Notes: generated by a model not told the origin, from the sequence alone. 42,556 nt of DNA from Candidatus Aminicenantota bacterium (GCA_030610885.1 JAUWQW010000008.1:1-42556), one strand, 5' to 3'. Shown: positions 5,776-39,277, counted from the first letter of the stretch. Made by a program: numbers and translations.

Positions 5776-6617
5776 TGAAGTCAAAACTTTTTATTTTTAT
5801 TATTGTGTCACTTATTTTAGCAGGGGTATTTCAATATGATTATGATTCACATACCAATTACTTTGCTGAAAAAAATATTTTTGTTACTTTACCTAAGGGA
5901 AAAACTTTAGAGATATTATCTTTTGGTTTTAAAAATTTTGTGGCTGATATGATTTTTATATGGTCTATCCAATTCTATTCCAATTATAATTTGAATAACA
6001 GATTTGAATACATTGAAGACATTTATAATATAATAACTGATCTAAACCCAAGATACAGAGCGCCATACTATGTTGGTTCATGGATAATGGCATTGGAATT
6101 GAATAATTATAAAATGGCAATAAGACTCCTTCAAAAGGCATCAAAAAATTTAAAAGATGATTGGGATTTTGATTTTGAATCAGGGTATTATGCATATAAG
6201 TACCTTAAAGATTATAAACTGGCAGAGAAATACTATAAAAAGGCTGCAGAAAAACCAGATGCACCTTCATTTGTAAAGAGGTGGCAAGCACATACTATTT
6301 ATATGAAAGATAATTTGACATATGCACTAAAAATGTGGCTGGAGATTAAAGAAAATGCAAAGAATAAATTGGAAAAAAATTCTGCATTAAATCACCTTTA
6401 TCAAATTAAATTTGAAATTGATAAAAAGAACCTTGAAGAAAAGATAAAACTCTTTGAACAAAGATTTAGAAGAAAGCCTGTTAATTTAAAAGAATTAAAG
6501 AGAAAGGGAATTATAAATATGATTCCTAAGGATTTTAAAGGTGAAGATTATATATATGATTTTAAAACAGGTAAAATTAAAGCAAAGAAGGTATTTCGAT
6601 GGAAGAAATTTTATTAA
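5775..6617 (+). CDS. TPR-like repeat protein with N-terminal membrane/signal segment
   Basis: N-terminal hydrophobic segment; helical repeats (YKMAIRLLQKASKN, YKLAEKYYKKAAEKP). Confidence 0.65.
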   Translation: MKSKLFIFIIVSLILAGVFQYDYDSHTNYFAEKNIFVTLPKGKTLEILSFGFKNFVADMIFIWSIQFYSNYNLNNRFEYIEDIYNIITDLNPRYRAPYYVGSWIMALELNNYKMAIRLLQKASKNLKDDWDFDFESGYYAYKYLKDYKLAEKYYKKAAEKPDAPSFVKRWQAHTIYMKDNLTYALKMWLEIKENAKNKLEKNSALNHLYQIKFEIDKKNLEEKIKLFEQRFRRKPVNLKELKRKGIINMIPKDFKGEDYIYDFKTGKIKAKKVFRWKKFY

Positions 6618-29548: not shown

Positions 29549-30586
29549 TCATTTAATCTTTTTTTTATATTTAAAAAAAGCACGCGAATAAGAATTTAAA
29601 AGAAAGTCAAATGAATCAAGATTTGGAAATTTCATATATTTCTCGTATCCCAACCATGCTATCATAGAAGCATTATCAGTACAATATCGTGAAGAAGGTA
29701 AATACAACATAATATTGTTGTTTTTAAATTCCTCTTTAAATTTTTCTCTTAATAAAGAATTGCGACTTACACCTCCTGCAACAACAACTGATTTTATTTT
29801 AAAACCTATTGCTGTTAATTTAGTTTTTTTCAAGAGGTAATCAGTAACAGAATTTAAAAAAGATGACATTAAATCGTAAAAAATTTGAGTGTTAACCTTA
29901 ATTTTAAATTCTTTTGAATATTTCAACACTGCTGTTTTATAGCCAGAAAAAGAAAAATCATTTGAGCCATCACTCATTTTGGGGAACGTAAAAGAAAATC
30001 TATTTTTATCTCCCTGTTTATAAATTCTGTCAAATATTGGTCCACCCGGATAACCAAAATTATAAAATTTAGCAATCTTATCCAGCACTTCCCCTACAGC
30101 ATCATCCCTTGTTTTAGAAACAACTTCTGTATCAAATTTTGACCTTTGATAAAATATAGATGTATGCCCACCTGATACAACAAGTGCAATTAGAGGATAT
30201 TGAATATTCTGATTATCAATAAAAACAGATTCAATATGAGAATTGATATGGTCTACAGGAACAATCGGTATTTTCCTGGAAAAAGATAATCCTTTAGCAA
30301 AGCAAAGCCCAATAAGTAAAGAACCAATCAAACCAGGCCCTTGAGTTAATGAAATTAAGCCAATATCGTCTATTTTTAAATTAGATTTTTTTAAAACCTT
30401 TAATGTAAGATAATCAATAACCTCATAATGATTTCTAGATGCAATTTCTGGAACAATACCACCATATTTTGAATGCAAAGGGATTTGTGATTTTATCTGC
30501 TCATTTATCACCCAGTTTTTTTCTCCTCTTTCAATAATTGAAACCGCTGTTTCATCACAGGATGATTCAATACCCATTATATACAT
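29549..30586 (-). CDS. tsaD: tRNA N6-adenosine threonylcarbamoyltransferase
   Basis: MGIESSCDETAVSIIE; VDHINSHIESVF metal motif; VVSGGHTSIF; VVAGGVSRNSLLREKF. Confidence 0.96.
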   Translation of the reverse strand: MYIMGIESSCDETAVSIIERGEKNWVINEQIKSQIPLHSKYGGIVPEIASRNHYEVIDYLTLKVLKKSNLKIDDIGLISLTQGPGLIGSLLIGLCFAKGLSFSRKIPIVPVDHINSHIESVFIDNQNIQYPLIALVVSGGHTSIFYQRSKFDTEVVSKTRDDAVGEVLDKIAKFYNFGYPGGPIFDRIYKQGDKNRFSFTFPKMSDGSNDFSFSGYKTAVLKYSKEFKIKVNTQIFYDLMSSFLNSVTDYLLKKTKLTAIGFKIKSVVVAGGVSRNSLLREKFKEEFKNNNIMLYLPSSRYCTDNASMIAWLGYEKYMKFPNLDSFDFLLNSYSRAFFKYKKKIK

Positions 30587-30621: not shown

Positions 30622-30663
30622 ATAATGAGGTTATATGTTAGATTGCTTTTCTTGTTAATTTTT

Positions 30664-30690
30664 CTGATGATGCGGTTTATTATGCACTTA
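30664..30690. repeat. Left member of an imperfect direct repeat flanking the lipoprotein/FHA-activator module
   Basis: gatgatgcggtttattatgcacttaca versus gaagatgtggtttattttacgcttaca at 34579-34605; 22 of 27 identical by eye. Confidence 0.5.
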
Positions 30691-30912
30691 CAAACTTTAA
30701 AATAATTTTTTGATTTAGTATAATAGAGTTTCACCTGTAAATAATTAAAAAATTTGATTGGTCATATAAAATAACTGATGAAATTTATCATTTGGTTAAA
30801 ATTAAAAGGTTTGAAAATGCTAAAACAATGCATCCGGTTTTAAATAAAGTGCCATTCCGTTTGGTTTGACGATGGATACGTTCAATTCAGAATAAGGGAA
30901 GATGTTTGTTAC

Positions 30913-32562
30913 TTACTTATTCAAATCGGCTCGGATTTTTTTTGCACTCAGAGTGTTATTATCATTATCATAAGTACCTTCAGCTTTAAGCATTCTATAG
31001 CGGCCGCTATTGATACCAGCTGCCAGACTTTCTGCATCAATCATTGTGGTGGTGTTTTTGTATTTTTCAAATATAATGGTCCCAGAATCGGTAACTACGG
31101 TAACTGTTCTATTCTCAATATTGCCTCCTTCTCCACCTCTTGTCAGACTGATCTGCAAGGGGGAGGTGGAAATTACGGAGAATATTTTACCCACCCATGT
31201 GGAACCGTCACCAGCCTCTTCTCCATCCGGGTCGGTTTCTGAAACCAATTCGCAATCGATAGCAGTAAATACACCCATGGTTTTGCGGTTAAAGTGTCCT
31301 TCAAGTTCAACAACCGAACCCACTTTAATGTCTATGGGGAACTCATTTACAAAATCTACGGTCAGTGGATTGTTAAATCCAGGAATGTTCTCAACGGAAA
31401 TGCCCTCAATCTTTGCCACATTAACACTGATTTGCTCGAGCAAAGAATTTACAGCCACAACTGTGCCAATTATTTTAGTCTCCTTTAATTTGACCTTCTG
31501 GGCAACTGTTGCATCAGCAGGCATACCTGTTACCCTGACATCCTGACCTAAAGCGAGTTGATCTGCACACGCTGACATACAGGGATCAGTATACAGGAAG
31601 AAGGTGTTATCATCATAGGTGATAGTCTGGACGGAACCAGGTTCAAAACCGGAATCTCTGGATCCAAGCACCAGCAGGTTAAAACTTGATGTATTCAGAC
31701 CTACCACAATCCCCTGGGATTCCAGGCCGTGATTTTCAAATTTCCGTTCGATCCTGGTGGCTGTCACCGTATTGGTATCAACATTCAGTATCCCGTCTAC
31801 CTCCACTGTGTTGCCAACAGAAATCAGTTCTGTAAGATCAAAATCAGGAGAGGTTGGTAAAACAATAATTTCATCCACTTCCACAACAGTTTCATTTGTG
31901 AGTGCGATATTCATTGTGCTATCGTTGTGCGTAATCACCAGTGACATGGATTGTACAGACTGAACCACTCCCTTGAACTCGGTAATTTCTGGGTCTGAAT
32001 CAGTTGTAACCTTAACGATCAGAGTGGGCATCAGCAGTAGGTTGCCGTGAGGGCCGGACACAACATTAAAGACCGAATTATTCAAGTCAAAATCGATTTG
32101 AATGAATGCATTGTCAGAATCCACCTTGAGGTAGGGATTTAGCAGCACCTTAGCAGTACCAAAATGTTGGGGAAGAACTGTTAACCTATTGCAGTTGTCA
32201 TCAAGTGCCAGAGCATTCTTGTAAGATAGGGTGAGCTCTTTATAAAGCCCAGAAGCCAGGGGCACAGACGCCAGCAGCATATTGATGTCCTGGAGACTCA
32301 GCAGGTTGAGAATAAAAGTTTCTCCCTGGTTTTCTGAAAAAATCACCGTTACATTTCTTAAAGTGTCTATGATTTTTAATTCTGTTAGTTCTACCTGGAG
32401 TACGGAGAGCTCATCATGAACTGCATCAGTTATGACAAAGAGTCCCCGCGATAAACCTGATTCAGGCGTGTTCTGGGTCTGGGAATCATCTATTTTGTTG
32501 CGTTGGCATCCCGCAAAGAAGATAAGTAAAAGTGATATTAAGATAATTGTTATTTTTTTCAT
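30913..32562 (-). CDS. Lipoprotein with DUF4382-like N-terminus and DUF5666-like repeats
   Basis: Lipobox LLIFFAGC; GLFVITDAVHDELSVLQVELTELKI DUF4382-like; repeated OB-like segments (EFKGVVQSV..., ESQGIVVGL..., KIIGTVVAV..., TWVGKIFSV...). Visibly more GC-rich than its neighbours. Confidence 0.75.
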   Translation of the reverse strand: MKKITIILISLLLIFFAGCQRNKIDDSQTQNTPESGLSRGLFVITDAVHDELSVLQVELTELKIIDTLRNVTVIFSENQGETFILNLLSLQDINMLLASVPLASGLYKELTLSYKNALALDDNCNRLTVLPQHFGTAKVLLNPYLKVDSDNAFIQIDFDLNNSVFNVVSGPHGNLLLMPTLIVKVTTDSDPEITEFKGVVQSVQSMSLVITHNDSTMNIALTNETVVEVDEIIVLPTSPDFDLTELISVGNTVEVDGILNVDTNTVTATRIERKFENHGLESQGIVVGLNTSSFNLLVLGSRDSGFEPGSVQTITYDDNTFFLYTDPCMSACADQLALGQDVRVTGMPADATVAQKVKLKETKIIGTVVAVNSLLEQISVNVAKIEGISVENIPGFNNPLTVDFVNEFPIDIKVGSVVELEGHFNRKTMGVFTAIDCELVSETDPDGEEAGDGSTWVGKIFSVISTSPLQISLTRGGEGGNIENRTVTVVTDSGTIIFEKYKNTTTMIDAESLAAGINSGRYRMLKAEGTYDNDNNTLSAKKIRADLNK

Positions 32563-32583
32563 TATAAGTCTCCATTGTTTATA

Positions 32584-32599
32584 TGCAATTTTCTTTCCA
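32584..32599 (-). promoter_or_regulatory. Putative sigma54 (-24/-12) promoter for the lipoprotein gene
   Basis: Reverse strand TGGAAAGAAAATTGCA: 10 of 12 non-N positions of TGGCACG-N4-TTGCW, GG-N10-GC spacing exact; predicted TSS about 12 nt upstream of ATG with GGAG in the short leader. Confidence 0.7.
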
Positions 32600-32600
32600 C

Positions 32601-32607
32601 CTTAACA
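32601..32607 (+). promoter_or_regulatory. CTTAACA heptamer site 1
   Basis: CTTAACA directly upstream of the sigma54 -24 element. Confidence 0.45.
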
Positions 32608-32647
32608 ATCATTGGTTAACGGGCATTTTGGAAACTTATATGCCTTT

Positions 32648-32681
32648 ACTTAACAAAAAATGGGTTTACAAGTTGTTAAGT
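32648..32681. promoter_or_regulatory. Inverted repeat ACTTAACAA-N16-TTGTTAAGT (heptamer sites 2 and 3), candidate upstream activating sequence
   Basis: Perfect 9-bp arms at 32648-32656 and 32673-32681; about 75-110 bp upstream of the predicted sigma54 TSS. Confidence 0.6.
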
Positions 32682-32774
32682 TGTAAAGAAGGATAATTTT
32701 TTTCATTTGGAAGAAATTTCAAATCCGTTGAATACAAGCAGGTTTTAGAAATAAAATTCAAATTTTAAATTACA

Positions 32775-32803
32775 TTGACAAGTGTTAAGCTGTTGTATAT
32801 AAT
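32775..32803 (+). promoter_or_regulatory. Perfect-consensus sigma70 promoter TTGACA-N17-TATAAT for the FHA activator; spacer contains TGTTAAG (32783-32789)
   Basis: TTGACA 32775-32780; TATAAT 32798-32803; GTG start codon at 32810, at the expected +1. Confidence 0.8.
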
Positions 32804-32809
32804 TTAATA

Positions 32810-34564
32810 GTGCTTTATCTTTTATATTTAAGAAGCGGGTTTATAAAAAAATTTCCCTTAACCAAAAAGATAGTTTTCCTAGGAAGTTCATCCAAAAATG
32901 ATTTCAGCCTCGATGACACTTTTGTTTCCCAGAAGCATGCCAAAATAAATGTTTTTGAAAATCATATAACTATCGAGGATTTAGGTTCTACCAATGGTAT
33001 CTTTATTGAAACCAAAAGAATCCAAAAAGCAAAGATAGAAATAAACCAATACTTTCGTGTTGGATATTTAAACTTTTTTCTAAAAGAAGGAAATTCTCAG
33101 GATTTTATTATATCAGAAAAGGTACAACCGGTTTTAAACAAAATCTCAAATATGTTTGCCGATAAAGGAGATAAAACTCAGGAGGCTATCAATCTTTTAT
33201 ACACTGAATCTCTGATCGGAATGCTGCAAATTTGTTTTAAACTGGATGACTTTGTTGACATATTTAAATATACAAAAAAATTATTAGATCAATCATTAAA
33301 AAAAGGTAGTTTGGTTTTGGTTTCCAGAGAAAACAATAATAACATTATTGAATCTAAATGGAATTATAATAAAAAATATTATTCCAACCTATTTGAGATA
33401 CTACAATTTGAAGATATTTTTCAAAAAACATACATAAATAAAAAAATTGCAGATTCACTTTTTTTTTGTTCTTTTCCTTTTATTTTAAGTACTCGAACCT
33501 TGATTTTAATTTATTTGTTAGAAACAGTAAAGGCCATTCCAACAGGAACCATCAACTTTCTAAAAAATTTATCTGTTGAAATCTCTCTCGTCTATTCCTT
33601 AATAGAACAGAATAAAATAACTATCGAAAAAAAAGGAGGAAAAGCACCAGAAATCATTACCAACAATCAAATCATGTTAAATTTCCTGTCAAAGTGCAAG
33701 AAAATTGCTGATGGTGACCTATTTGTGATAATTGAAGGCGAGACCGGAACAGGAAAGGAATTGGTTGCGAGATTTATTCACAGCCAATCTAAACGAAGTT
33801 CAGGAAATTTTGTGGGATTAAATTGTTCAGCAGTTCCTGAAAATCTCATGGAAGATGAATTATTTGGCCATGAAAAAGGAGCTTTCACCGATGCAAAGAA
33901 TCAAAGGAAAGGAAAATTAGAACTCTCCTCTGGAGGAACACTGGTTCTGGATGAAATTAGTGATATGCCTTTAAGCCTGCAAAAAAAGTTATTGCGAGCC
34001 ATTCAGGAGAAGCAGTTTTATCGGATTGGGGGAAATCAGCTAGTGAAAGTGGATCTAAGAATTGTCTGCTTAACTCACAGTAACATTTTGGAATTGATGA
34101 AGGAAGGGAAGTTCAGGGAGGATTTATTCTATCGGTTAAACCATGTTACGTTAAATATATTGCCATTAAGAGAAAGGAAAGAAGATATTATTCCCCTGAT
34201 TAACCACTTTGTTAAAATCTTTTCCAATGAAAAGCGAATCACCATCAAAGGCTTTTCTAGGAAAGCAATAAAAGCTCTGGAAATGTATGATTGGCCAGGC
34301 AATGTTCGAGAACTCCAAAATGAAATTAAAAAAATTATATTCCTGTCAGAAGGCGGTGACCTCATTGACTCATCTCTGTTAAAAACTGAAATCATTCATT
34401 TTTTTAAAGAACATATATCTTCAGGAAAATTTAATGCAACTGAGAAGGAGAAAATTTTGAAATTATTAAAAAAACATAAGTGGAACAAAACCGTTGTTTC
34501 AATGGAAATGAAAATAAGCCGTACCGCTCTTTATGAAAAACTAAAAAAATACAATATAAGGTAA
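32810..34564 (+). CDS. FHA-domain sigma54-dependent transcriptional activator (FHA, GAF-like, AAA+, Fis-type HTH)
   Basis: FHA core VFLGSSSKNDFSLDDTFVSQKHAKI...IEDLGSTNGIFI; Walker A GETGTGKE; GAFTDA (GAFTGA variant); LFYRLNHVTLNILPLRER; C-terminal HTH. Confidence 0.93.
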   Translation: MLYLLYLRSGFIKKFPLTKKIVFLGSSSKNDFSLDDTFVSQKHAKINVFENHITIEDLGSTNGIFIETKRIQKAKIEINQYFRVGYLNFFLKEGNSQDFIISEKVQPVLNKISNMFADKGDKTQEAINLLYTESLIGMLQICFKLDDFVDIFKYTKKLLDQSLKKGSLVLVSRENNNNIIESKWNYNKKYYSNLFEILQFEDIFQKTYINKKIADSLFFCSFPFILSTRTLILIYLLETVKAIPTGTINFLKNLSVEISLVYSLIEQNKITIEKKGGKAPEIITNNQIMLNFLSKCKKIADGDLFVIIEGETGTGKELVARFIHSQSKRSSGNFVGLNCSAVPENLMEDELFGHEKGAFTDAKNQRKGKLELSSGGTLVLDEISDMPLSLQKKLLRAIQEKQFYRIGGNQLVKVDLRIVCLTHSNILELMKEGKFREDLFYRLNHVTLNILPLRERKEDIIPLINHFVKIFSNEKRITIKGFSRKAIKALEMYDWPGNVRELQNEIKKIIFLSEGGDLIDSSLLKTEIIHFFKEHISSGKFNATEKEKILKLLKKHKWNKTVVSMEMKISRTALYEKLKKYNIR

Positions 34565-34578
34565 TTTTTAAATCAATG

Positions 34579-34605
34579 GAAGATGTGGTTTATTTTACGC
34601 TTACA
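34579..34605. repeat. Right member of the imperfect direct repeat flanking the module
   Basis: gaagatgtggtttattttacgcttaca; see left copy at 30664-30690. Confidence 0.5.
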
Positions 34606-34619
34606 TTTAATCTTAAAAT

Positions 34620-35153
34620 TTAAATCAGGTCACTTTTTTTGAAAATTGAAATAAATTTATATCCTGCAGCTTCTATTTTTTCTCTTGCTCCTTCCTCTCT
34701 ATCAATAAGTCCCATTATAATTTCAACTTTGCAACCTTGAGATTCCACCTGTTTTGCTCCTTTTAGAATTGATGCTCCTGATGTCACAACATCATCAAAA
34801 ATTGCTACTCTTCCGTTTTTAGGGAAATTGCCCTCAATAATTTTTCTTGTGCCATACGATTTCCCCTCTTTCCTTATTATAAAAGCAGGAATAGGATTAT
34901 TTTCCAAAAAACTAAGTAGAGAAATCGAAGAAACAATCGGATCTGCACCTATTGAATACCCACCAACAGCATGTACATTGAAATCTTTAAGCATCTTTAA
35001 GAACAATTTCCCACACAAGAAAGCTCCTTCAGGGTCTAAAGTAGAAACTCTTGCATCAACATAAAAATTACTGATTTTTCCAGATGAAAGTTTAAACTCT
35101 TTTCCTGTTATAACAGACTTTTCTAATAATATCTCTCTTAATCTATTTTTCAC
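34620..35153 (-). CDS. pyrE: Orotate phosphoribosyltransferase
   Basis: SGKISNFYVDARV; VAIFDDVVTSGASILKGA PRPP-binding motif. Confidence 0.95.
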   Translation of the reverse strand: MKNRLREILLEKSVITGKEFKLSSGKISNFYVDARVSTLDPEGAFLCGKLFLKMLKDFNVHAVGGYSIGADPIVSSISLLSFLENNPIPAFIIRKEGKSYGTRKIIEGNFPKNGRVAIFDDVVTSGASILKGAKQVESQGCKVEIIMGLIDREEGAREKIEAAGYKFISIFKKSDLI

Positions 35154-35704
35154 GAAATCTTCACAGTTAAATTACTTGGCATTGCTTTTTTTATAAAAGG
35201 TGCAAATTTAAACATTGTTTTTTCTAAAAAATCCAAATCTCTTGACGAAAAATCCTCCCCAGCTTCTGAAAAGACTAAACTTCTTCTTGAAATTTCAATA
35301 ACTCCAAGTTTTTCATCATTCACATAAATTAAAGCTCCGATCATTTTCCATATTGGTTTTATCTTATTATCAGGGGTTGGGATAATTTCAAATATACTCA
35401 GATGTTTTTGTGCTTGAAGATTATTTTCAAGTAAAGGTCTACCTGTTTTGAAAATTTTCGAAGCAAGGGCGTCATCAGAACTTACTGGAATCATCCCTGA
35501 ATCTATAAGAAACGAAGGGCATACAAATGATAATATTGTCTTATCATTATTTACTAACAATATTGAAATCTCCTCTTCTTTTACGTTTAAATTTTCTGTA
35601 TAAAATTTTGAAATTCCACAAATAACATTTCCAAAAGCCTCTTTTGAGTCTTCAATTTCAACATCTTTTTTTAATTTTTCTATCAACAGGTTTATATCTT
35701 TCAT
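35150..35704 (-). CDS. GAF-like domain protein
   Basis: ASKIFKTGRPLLENNLQAQKHLS...MIGALIYVNDEKLGVIEISRR; overlaps pyrE start by 4 nt. Confidence 0.65.
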   Translation of the reverse strand: MKDINLLIEKLKKDVEIEDSKEAFGNVICGISKFYTENLNVKEEEISILLVNNDKTILSFVCPSFLIDSGMIPVSSDDALASKIFKTGRPLLENNLQAQKHLSIFEIIPTPDNKIKPIWKMIGALIYVNDEKLGVIEISRRSLVFSEAGEDFSSRDLDFLEKTMFKFAPFIKKAMPSNLTVKIS

Positions 35705-35772
35705 CTTTATACTCCTTGTTATAATAATAATAAATTAAATAGAAAAAAACAAGGTTTTTTCTCTAAAATTAC

Positions 35773-35784
35773 ACTCTTAAGAGT
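35773..35784. promoter_or_regulatory. Perfect 12-bp palindrome ACTCTTAAGAGT between divergent genes
   Basis: Self-complementary sequence in the GAF gene / glycosyltransferase intergenic region. Confidence 0.3.
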
Positions 35785-35823
35785 ATATTGCAAATTTTAA
35801 ACTATTGTAAAGAATTTGAAAAT

Positions 35824-36816
35824 ATGTTAAAAAACTTTATGAAGGAAATTTTTGTATCAATTATTGTCCCGGTATTCAACGAAGAAGAGAATGTCATTCC
35901 TCTATATGATGAAATTATCTCTTCTGTTGATAACAAATATAAAGATTTTGAGATTATTTTCGCAAATGATGGGAGCACAGATAACTCGTTTTCGAAATTA
36001 TTAGAATTAAATAAAAAAGATAATAGGGTTAAAATTATTAATTTCAGGAAAAATTTCGGCCAAACCTCTGCAATTGCTGCAGGTTTTGATCTTTGTAAAG
36101 GAGATATGGTTGTTACATTAGATGCTGATTTACAAAATGATCCAGCCGATATCCCTGTTATTATAGACAAATTATTAGATGGTTATGATATTGTCAATGG
36201 ATGGCGAAAGAATAGAAAAGATAAATTTATTACAAAAAAAATACCCTCTTTTTTTGGAAACAAATTGATCTCTTTCATTACTAAGGTCAAACTTCATGAT
36301 TATGGATGTACTTTAAGAGGATTCAGAAGAGAGGTTGTAAAAAATCTAACCCTATATGGTGAAATGCACAGATATATACCTGCAATTGCTTCAAAATTCG
36401 GAATCAAATCAATTGAAATCCCTGTTAATCACAGAAAAAGAAAATTCGGGAAATCAAATTATGGTATAGGAAGGACATTTAGAGTAATACTCGATCTTAT
36501 ATCCATTAAATATTTACTCTCTTTCTCTCATAGACCTTTAAAAATTTTTGGTAGCCTGGGCATATTAATGATAGGAACCGGATTTTTAAGCGGTATTTCC
36601 CTGAGTTATGAAAAATTTGTTTTAAGACACTCAATAGCTGACAGACCACTTTTGTTTCTTACAATCCTTTTGATCTTTCTCGGATTCCAGGTCATTACTC
36701 TTGGATTAATAGCAGAAATGCTTACAAGAATATATCATGAAGGGCTTCACCAAAATACATATTCAATAAGAGAGACAATTGGATTTAAAAATGAAAATAT
36801 TGATGATAGCACCTGA
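35824..36816 (+). CDS. Family 2 glycosyltransferase (dolichol/undecaprenyl-phosphate sugar transferase-like) with C-terminal TM helices
   Basis: VSIIVPVFNEEENVIPLYDEI; FANDGSTDNS; DADLQNDPADIP; two C-terminal TM segments. Track start is TTG 35788; a later ATG is preferred. Confidence 0.9.
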   Translation: MLKNFMKEIFVSIIVPVFNEEENVIPLYDEIISSVDNKYKDFEIIFANDGSTDNSFSKLLELNKKDNRVKIINFRKNFGQTSAIAAGFDLCKGDMVVTLDADLQNDPADIPVIIDKLLDGYDIVNGWRKNRKDKFITKKIPSFFGNKLISFITKVKLHDYGCTLRGFRREVVKNLTLYGEMHRYIPAIASKFGIKSIEIPVNHRKRKFGKSNYGIGRTFRVILDLISIKYLLSFSHRPLKIFGSLGILMIGTGFLSGISLSYEKFVLRHSIADRPLLFLTILLIFLGFQVITLGLIAEMLTRIYHEGLHQNTYSIRETIGFKNENIDDST

Positions 36817-37942
36817 GCCCTTTTTTGAGCCAAGGGGCACTCCATTTTCCGAGTATTATAGAATTAAGGGTTTAATTGATCTCGGGCATTCAATAGACCT
36901 TGTAACCTACCCATTTGGTGAGGATAAAAAAATTCAAAGCCTTAAAATTATTAGATGTGCTAAACCTCCATTTATAAACAGGGTTAAAACAGGACCATCT
37001 TTTTCAAAAATCATTCTTGATATTTTTCTTATCATTAAAGTTATTGGAATGTTTATAAAAAATAAATATGATTTAATTCATACTCATGAAGAAGCAAATA
37101 TTATTGGAGCTATTCTCAACAAAATAACAAAAATACCCCATTTGTATGACATGCACTCCTCTCTTGTTCAACAGATGAACAATTTCCAATTTACGAAATC
37201 AAAAATAATCATCTCTTTTTTTAAGATGATTGAAAAAATCTCTTTAGAAAACGCTAAATCTACAATTGTGATCTGTAAATCTTTATTTCAATATGCTTCA
37301 ACAATAACTGATAAGAAAAAATTAACTGTTATTGAAAATTTTATTGATGATACTCCTGAATTATTAGATAAAAATAAGCTAAATAATATAAGAAATAAAT
37401 TGGGAATTCAAAATAAAAAGGTAATTATGTATACTGGAACCTTTGAAAAATACCAGGGTCTACCATTATTGATTGAAAGTATGAAATATCTTGATGAGAA
37501 ATATTGCCTGGTGTTAGTGGGTGGAAAAGAGGAACAGATAAAAGAGATAAAAAAGATATTAAAAAAAAAAGCATTAGAGCAAAGAGTAATTCTTCTTGGA
37601 ACAAAACAGCCTCACGAAATTCCTTACTTTCTAAAAATCTCAGATGTACTTGTATCACCAAGAATTCTTGGAACAAATATCCCCTTAAAAATTTATTCAT
37701 ATTTAAAATCAGGGGTTCCTACTGTTGCTACAAATCTACACACACACACTCAATCATTAGATAATAGCATAGCAATACTAACTGAGCCAGAACCTGAGAA
37801 ATTTGCAATAGGAATAAAAGAAGCAGTATCAGAAAAAGGTAAAATAATCTCAAAAAATGCTGTAGAATTTTATAATAAATATTACACTTATGATAAGTAT
37901 CTTGAGCTTGTAAATATTGCAGTAAACAAGGCACTCAAATAA
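36791..37942 (+). CDS. Family 4-type glycosyltransferase (GT-B fold)
   Basis: MKILMIAPEPFFEPRGTPFSEYYRIKGL; VIMYTGTFEKYQGLPLLIESMKYL; LVSPRILGTNIPLKIYSYLKSGVPTVAT. Confidence 0.9.
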   Translation: MKILMIAPEPFFEPRGTPFSEYYRIKGLIDLGHSIDLVTYPFGEDKKIQSLKIIRCAKPPFINRVKTGPSFSKIILDIFLIIKVIGMFIKNKYDLIHTHEEANIIGAILNKITKIPHLYDMHSSLVQQMNNFQFTKSKIIISFFKMIEKISLENAKSTIVICKSLFQYASTITDKKKLTVIENFIDDTPELLDKNKLNNIRNKLGIQNKKVIMYTGTFEKYQGLPLLIESMKYLDEKYCLVLVGGKEEQIKEIKKILKKKALEQRVILLGTKQPHEIPYFLKISDVLVSPRILGTNIPLKIYSYLKSGVPTVATNLHTHTQSLDNSIAILTEPEPEKFAIGIKEAVSEKGKIISKNAVEFYNKYYTYDKYLELVNIAVNKALK

Positions 37943-37972
37943 AGATTGTTTGCTTAAAATTAAGGAGCTAAT

Positions 37973-39277
37973 ATGACAGAAAGGTATGAAATTGAAGAGA
38001 TTTCAAAAATATGGGATAGAGAAAATAAATATAGAAAATGGCTTGAAGTAGAACTCGCAATAGTTGAAACATGGTATGAATTTGGGAAAATTCCAAAAGC
38101 AAGCTTAGAAAATATCAAAAAAAAGGCTAATTTTAATATAAAAAGGATCAATGAGATAGAAAAAAAGGTAAAACACGATGTTATTGCATTTTTAACCTCA
38201 ATTGAAGAATATGTTGGAAAAGATTCCGCTTATATTCATATGGGGATTACTTCATATGATATTGTTGATACTGCTCTTTCTCTGATGATTAACGAATCAC
38301 TTAAAATAATCATTAATAAAGCAAATAGATTAAAAAACATCTTAATTCAAGAGGCATTTAAATATAAAGATTTACAATCTATTGGTAGAACTCATGGAAT
38401 TCATGCTGAGCCCATTACATTTGGCATTAAATATCTTATATGGTATGAAGAAATAAAAAGAAATATATATAGATTAATCAATGCAAAGGAGATAATCTCA
38501 GTTGGAAAGATTTCCGGCTCTGTTGGAACATATATTCATTTCCCCTCTGAAGGAGAAGAAATAGCTTTAAAGAAGTTAAATCTAAAGCCATGCAAGGTCT
38601 CCTCACAAATAATCCAAAGAGACAGACATATGCAAGTTATATATGCACTAGCAAGTATAACATCTGGAATAGAAAAAATAGCTATTGAAATAAGACATCT
38701 TCAAAGAACAGAAGTTCTTGAGGTTGAAGAGCCATTTACAAAAGGACAAAAGGGTTCTTCATCAATGCCTCATAAAAAGAATCCAGTAAAATGTGAGAGA
38801 ATCTCTGGATTGGCCAGACTATTGAGAGGAAATTTGTCAGTAGCATTTGAAAATAACCTTTTATGGCATGAGAGGGACATTTCTCATTCTTCCTCAGAAC
38901 GAATAATTTTTCCGGATTCATTTCATATAACAGCATTTATTTTAGATGAAATGTCATATATTATTAAAAACATTAATATTTACCCAGAAAACATAAAGAA
39001 AAACCTTGATATGACAAATGAAGTATATTATTCTCAAAAAGTGTTAACTTTACTTGTAAATAAAAAAATTCCAAGACAAAAAGCCTATGAATTAGTACAA
39101 AAGAATGCTCTTGAATCCTGGACAAAAAAGAAAAGTTTTAGAAAGTTAATTTTAAAAGATAAAAAAATAAACTCTATATGTACAGAATCAGAACTCAACA
39201 AAGCCTTTTCTGAAAAAGATCTATTAGCAGGCATAAGTAAAATTTTTAAGAAGTTCGAGTATGAAAAAAAGAGTTAA
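37973..39277 (+). CDS. purB: Adenylosuccinate lyase
   Basis: RTHGIHAEPITFGIK; GQKGSSSMPHKKNPVKCERI signature. Confidence 0.96.
   Translation: MTERYEIEEISKIWDRENKYRKWLEVELAIVETWYEFGKIPKASLENIKKKANFNIKRINEIEKKVKHDVIAFLTSIEEYVGKDSAYIHMGITSYDIVDTALSLMINESLKIIINKANRLKNILIQEAFKYKDLQSIGRTHGIHAEPITFGIKYLIWYEEIKRNIYRLINAKEIISVGKISGSVGTYIHFPSEGEEIALKKLNLKPCKVSSQIIQRDRHMQVIYALASITSGIEKIAIEIRHLQRTEVLEVEEPFTKGQKGSSSMPHKKNPVKCERISGLARLLRGNLSVAFENNLLWHERDISHSSSERIIFPDSFHITAFILDEMSYIIKNINIYPENIKKNLDMTNEVYYSQKVLTLLVNKKIPRQKAYELVQKNALESWTKKKSFRKLILKDKKINSICTESELNKAFSEKDLLAGISKIFKKFEYEKKS

Follow-up and report, generated by a model that had tools for sequence, protein, structure and literature searches.

The window analysed here, a stretch of 42,556 nucleotides from Candidatus Aminicenantota bacterium, was contig C24 of a draft assembly (2.5 Mb, 128 contigs). 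Gene calls and domain searches confirmed the proposal of a first-pass annotation that two divergent genes lie between tsaD and pyrE. One encodes a lipoprotein and the other an FHA-type sigma54 activator. The features of the locus are listed in Table 1.

Table 1. Features of the tsaD-pyrE interval (positions counted from the first nucleotide of the window)
Feature	Position	Strand	Description
tsaD	29549-30586		Flank on the lipoprotein side of the gene pair
Left junction	30658..30661		ATTT, last bases common to the empty site, present again at the right junction (BLASTN against G001 and G002)
Terminal direct repeat, left copy	30666..30692	+	27 bp, imperfect (22/27)
Insert tail	30693..30912		AT-rich, downstream of the lipoprotein gene, without intact gene (six-frame reading)
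Lipoprotein gene	30913..32562	-	549 aa; signal peptide with lipobox, DUF4382-like N-terminal domain, OB-fold-like repeats including DUF5666
Predicted sigma54 promoter (-24/-12)	32583..32599	-	TGGAAAGAAAATTGCAT; begins 37 nt upstream of the lipoprotein ATG
Candidate activator-binding site (UAS)	32664..32688		GTTTACAAGTTGTTAAGTTGTAAAG, 25 bp; inverted repeat TTTACAA-N9-TTGTAAA
Predicted sigma70 promoter	32775..32803	+	TTGACA-17-TATAAT, consensus; -10 ends 6 nt before the activator GTG
Sigma54 activator gene	32810..34564	+	584 aa, GTG start
FHA domain	32876..33049	+	Gly-Ser at residue 26 where other FHA domains have Gly-Arg
Terminal direct repeat, right copy	34579..34605	+	27 bp; ends at the right junction
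Right junction	34605..34608		ATTT common to the empty site (BLASTN against congeners)
pyrE	34620-35153		Flank on the activator side of the gene pair

The lipoprotein gene had been described as richer in GC than the rest of the window, and its GC content was indeed 42.5%, compared to 29.1 ± 3.4% in the 33 other window genes (z 3.9). With the genes of the window as the reference set for codon statistics, its GC3 (z 6.8) and codon score (z -7.6) deviated as well. The activator gene, at 31.3% GC, likewise displayed atypical codon usage (GC3 z 2.9, codon score z -3.7). The per-gene comparison of GC and codon usage suggested by the first-pass annotation therefore upheld the deviation of the lipoprotein gene and added that of the activator gene, which had been overlooked.

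The window genome (G000, genus g1) was compared with two congeners, G001 and G002, and both contained an empty site. pyrE and tsaD were 90 bp apart in G001, with tsaD and flanks 96% identical to the window, and 88 bp apart in G002, with 88% identity. In BLASTN, the window flanks aligned with both genomes up to 30661 and again from 34605; thus, about 3.94 kb is extra in the window, with boundaries close to the limits previously drawn around the gene pair (30664-34605). G000 and G001 were sisters in the tree with G002 outside, so a gain on the G000 branch requires one event. The comparison shows an insertion, and the ~3.94 kb cassette appears to be a recent one. The claim of horizontal acquisition was supported, as far as acquisition goes, by the empty sites in two congeners and by the atypical codon usage.

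An alternative without insertion would be ancestral presence at pyrE-tsaD, followed by loss in G001 and G002. In genus g8 (G009, G019), the activator gene is indeed found some 5 kb away from the GAF-pyrE gene pair, but it flanks that pair on the other side and has different neighbours. Furthermore, the spacer in the nearest congener (G001) is a clean 90 bp between closely similar flanks, and the codon usage of the insert genes is atypical. We regard this alternative as very improbable, and an ancestral linkage to pyrE as unlikely.

No integrase, transposase or recombinase gene was found in the insert, and no clear target duplication was seen. The ends displayed imperfect 27-bp direct repeats and ATTT alone, which do not define an autonomous mobile element. 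When up to three mismatches were allowed, the 27-bp repeat had two copies in the whole genome, both at the insert ends, and no convincing copy in the loci compared. The likeness of the two repeats was reached by chance in about 11 of 5000 cases in a post hoc test. A search of plasmid sequences gave no match. The AT-rich tail was considered as a gene remnant and rejected, as no homologue beyond the query itself was present in 35 genomes.

The activator consists of an FHA domain (residues 23-80), a middle domain (96-280), a Sigma54_activat AAA+ domain (282-448; E 1.5e-64; Walker A GETGTGKE) and an HTH_8 domain (544-581). Its L1 loop is GAFTDA, not GAFTGA; GAFTDA is a natural functional variant present in FlgR (PMC3162934). 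The genome also encodes sigma54 (rpoN; TIGR02395, E 1.8e-101). By these tests on the sequence, the protein is a predicted sigma54 enhancer-binding protein. The middle domain was conserved among orthologues. Profile searches gave no GAF match to it, and single-sequence folding was of low confidence (pLDDT 35, no usable model); therefore, a GAF-like domain is not claimed.

The closest activator relatives were in genus g9 (75 and 67% identical), followed by g3 and g8. Among 142 genomes of the class, relatives at E <= 1e-100 were confined to one family, and none were found in the congeners G001 and G002. The activator tree alone does not force horizontal transfer. Further FHA activators (L054, L056, L058, L062 and L066), with about 40% identity, formed a second clade that exhibited recurring ClpB-like, RlpA-like or kinase-like neighbours.

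The other product has the marks of a bacterial lipoprotein, namely a signal peptide, the lipobox FAGC and a Cys19 that was invariant in six aligned homologues. DUF5666 was detected at residues 197-272 (E 5e-13; 49.6 bits against a cut-off of 27). The DUF4382 region, at about residues 40-185, gave no significant Pfam match in the window copy but was significant in homologues 54-63% identical. The structural model was of moderate confidence (pLDDT 62, highest in the region of about 195-440), and its weak PDB matches were to OB folds (cold-shock, S1, CusF), which indicate fold and not function; ligand binding in the envelope is a guess. The window protein is of a longer DUF4382-DUF5666 type, and this long multi-repeat form was found here in Aminicenantes only. 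Homologues in named records all belonged to Candidatus Aminicenantes. No literature naming DUF4382 or DUF5666 in this setting was found by title or abstract, and the papers retrieved on these domains gave no account of their function.

The window lipoprotein was 63% identical to the copy of G006 (genus g5) and 52% identical to that of the congener G002. The tree path between G000 and G002 was 1.38 for the lipoprotein and 0.14 for tsaD; thus, these two lipoproteins are not simple orthologues. In G005 (C671, L074) a lipoprotein homologue lies directly before gltX, and in the window gltX is two genes from the lipoprotein gene; this proximity is probably a coincidence.

The divergent intergenic region was then read for promoters and binding sites. 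Of the 12 positions scored, the predicted sigma54 promoter of the lipoprotein gene matched 11, with a shuffling probability of about 0.001; between this promoter and the ATG lies the ribosome site GGAG. A strict pattern (TGGYRYRN4TTGCW, one mismatch) missed this promoter, which is off at two degenerate positions. The palindrome GTTTACAANTTGTTAAGTTGTAAAG had a single copy each in G000 and G016, in both cases in the intergenic region of the activator, and 0 copies in the genomes of G001, G002 and G010. Related TTACA..TGTAA sites were found in G009, G019 and g3. By sequence alone, the region thus has the two parts of a target promoter, a -24/-12 element and an upstream site.

Across 11 activator orthologues, the window included, a sigma54 site with at least 10 of 12 matches faced the divergent side in nine and the activator in none. 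Most of these sites face genes for exported products, which vary from one orthologue to the next. Besides the window, such divergent-facing sites were found in G016, G010, G017, G004, G011, G009, G019 and G012, and a good divergent sigma54 promoter was absent at both G021 activator copies. Upstream of the activator at 5860 in G009 (C575, L048), the sigma54 promoter and palindrome were kept with no divergent lipoprotein gene. A strong hairpin and its T run lie a short way downstream, as would be expected had the partner gene been lost and a short RNA remained.

On the activator side, the -10 box ends so close to the start codon that the mRNA is predicted to be leaderless. The 6-nt gap was exact in all nine orthologues that could be placed by script, with a poor -35 in G021b. 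Other genes of the window lack this arrangement at such a promoter, so the layout is not typical of window genes. In the orthologues L045-L052 and at window positions 32775-32812, the leaderless layout was base-exact over several genera.

The two genes appear to have different origins. Upstream of the activator, G000 and G016 (genus g9) were homologous over the 148 bp that separate the start codon from the far end of the UAS palindrome (z 12.3), and had no recognisable relation beyond the palindrome (z 0.5). Because homology ends at the palindrome, the activator, its promoter and the binding site form one block, which is joined to different genes in G000 and G016. The nearest copies of the lipoprotein are in genus g5, where they are not beside such an activator. 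As compared here, the pair is evidently composite, with the nearest relatives of its two genes in different genera.

Divergent partners of the activator were DUF4382 lipoproteins in G016 and three g3 genomes. In the same position, G019 has a different lipoprotein, G012 an exported Kelch protein and G010 a large exported protein. A DUF4382 lipoprotein is thus divergent from the activator in three genera, the window's included. DUF4382 genes numbered 0-2 per genome in 14 relatives, and one was divergent to an activator orthologue in 4 of the 14. Recurrent divergent pairing, which the first-pass annotation had named as support for its reading, was therefore found in g9 and g3 for the FHA activator with a DUF4382 lipoprotein. 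It was not found for the window's lipoprotein type, since none of five full-length copies in four genomes had an FHA activator beside it. Lipoproteins of the window type in G006, G012 and G005 have their own predicted sigma54 promoters and palindromes such as TGACAAATTTTGTCA. Palindromes of this type lie, mostly in tandem, upstream of the homologues L072, L073, L074 and L076, and are probably the site of another activator, differing from the window UAS.

These differences could also mean that two foreign genes came separately to an insertion-tolerant spot and that the activator controls another target. The genes differ in GC content (42.5 vs 31.3%) and in nearest relatives, and the lipoproteins of G006, G012 and G005 do without an adjacent FHA activator. 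However, the single UAS copy of the genome sits between these two genes, the sigma54 promoter is aimed at the lipoprotein gene, and activator orthologues are repeatedly found opposite envelope genes with sigma54 promoters. Chance neighbours are thus improbable, and the activator most likely drives the sigma54 promoter of the lipoprotein gene. Most simply, a lipoprotein gene that was already driven by sigma54 would have come under a new, adjacent activator. The cassette looks self-contained because of the single UAS copy. The proposal of an acquired activator-lipoprotein unit was thus largely upheld, although the pair is composite and the phospho-signal step is weak.

The FHA domain of the window activator is unusual among its relatives. 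A phosphothreonine-reading surface combines Gly-Arg, SxxH and NG; here SxxH and NG were kept and Gly-Ser was present. Serine replaced the phosphothreonine-contacting arginine in this copy alone among 20 FHA activators, the other 19 having Gly-Arg, and the change is a single-base call from a draft assembly. This arginine is one of the conserved phosphothreonine-binding residues, and in Agrobacterium Fha R30A alone lowered output and R30A/S46A abolished it (PMC3953482). Direct phosphothreonine reading is therefore probably weakened in the window copy.

The lipoprotein had been proposed to be induced by a phospho-signal. In such a phospho-dependent unit, a Hanks kinase encoded elsewhere would phosphorylate a partner or the activator, and the FHA domain would read the phosphothreonine. 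The genome has 11 matches to Hanks-type kinases, a kinase-like gene (read from the sequence) lies directly beside activator relatives in G012, G014 and G002, and part of the FHA surface is retained. Phospho-control is thus plausible for the activator family and uncertain here. The lost arginine, the Agrobacterium mutants and the insert, which contains no kinase gene, argue against it, and no kinase was co-inherited with the pair. The phospho-signal step is therefore doubtful for this copy, and we consider the phospho-dependent unit a possible, less favoured account.

Taken together, the locus is probably a regulatory cassette that is composite in origin and about 3.94 kb long, with a divergent lipoprotein gene under an FHA-type sigma54 activator. 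It would have been inserted between pyrE and tsaD after the split from the nearest congener compared. A strong sigma70 promoter would produce the activator as a leaderless mRNA. Bound to the palindrome between the two divergent genes, the activator would act together with sigma54 RNA polymerase to switch on the -24/-12 promoter of the lipoprotein gene, and the output would be a single envelope lipoprotein with a DUF4382 domain and OB-fold-like repeats. Across the bacterial family, the conserved part would be the activator with its promoter layout, the divergent envelope gene being exchanged; the binding site appears clearly conserved at least between g1 and g9. The cassette is thus most likely a sigma54 regulator of one target, in which the surface-protein partner is exchangeable. 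More tentatively, the activator, UAS and leaderless promoter might be a transplantable expression site for envelope proteins. Within one family of Aminicenantes, this site would move from locus to locus and from species to species and capture different sigma54-driven surface genes, and this copy would have been freed of phospho-control through loss of the FHA arginine.

In Myxococcus, FHA-type sigma54 activators join an FHA domain to an AAA+ activator and are often encoded near Hanks kinases. The window activator shares the FHA-AAA+ fusion, and its relatives have kinase-like neighbours; it differs in lacking the FHA arginine and a kinase neighbour, in its middle domain and in belonging to another phylum. 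The lipoprotein shares domain content and a signal peptide with lipobox with DUF4382/DUF5666 lipoproteins (Pfam PF14321, PF18914), and differs in its predicted sigma54 control and long multi-repeat form. Type Ib sigma54 enhancer-binding proteins, with a non-receiver N-terminal sensor (Francke et al. 2011, PMC3162934), have in common with the window system the Sigma54_activat and HTH_8 domains, a -24/-12 target promoter and a link to envelope genes including lipoproteins. In contrast to these, the window activator has a sensor of FHA and middle domain, a GAFTDA loop and a leaderless gene, and its divergent target gene is exchanged between relatives.

Control of the bacterial exterior, lipoproteins included, has been named as the common theme of sigma54 (PMC3162934), so this principle was already known. 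What appears new from our comparisons is the exact pairing, the conserved activator block with its exchanged partner, and the loss of the arginine from the FHA domain. With its empty sites and sharp homology boundary, the locus offers a clean natural example of a putative one-target sigma54 switch acquired with, or capturing, a surface lipoprotein, and it would extend the proposed sigma54-exterior link to uncultured Aminicenantes. It also cautions that a gene named for its FHA domain does not necessarily encode a reader of phosphothreonine.

Elsewhere in the window, pyrE, a weakly GAF-like gene upstream of it and the adjoining glycosyltransferase genes (34620-39277) were kept in several genera of the family, unlike the 3' side of pyrE, which varied. 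The last two genes of the contig (41418-42556), one isochorismatase-like and the second without assignment, had codon scores of z -1.7 and -2.9, and are perhaps another foreign stretch.
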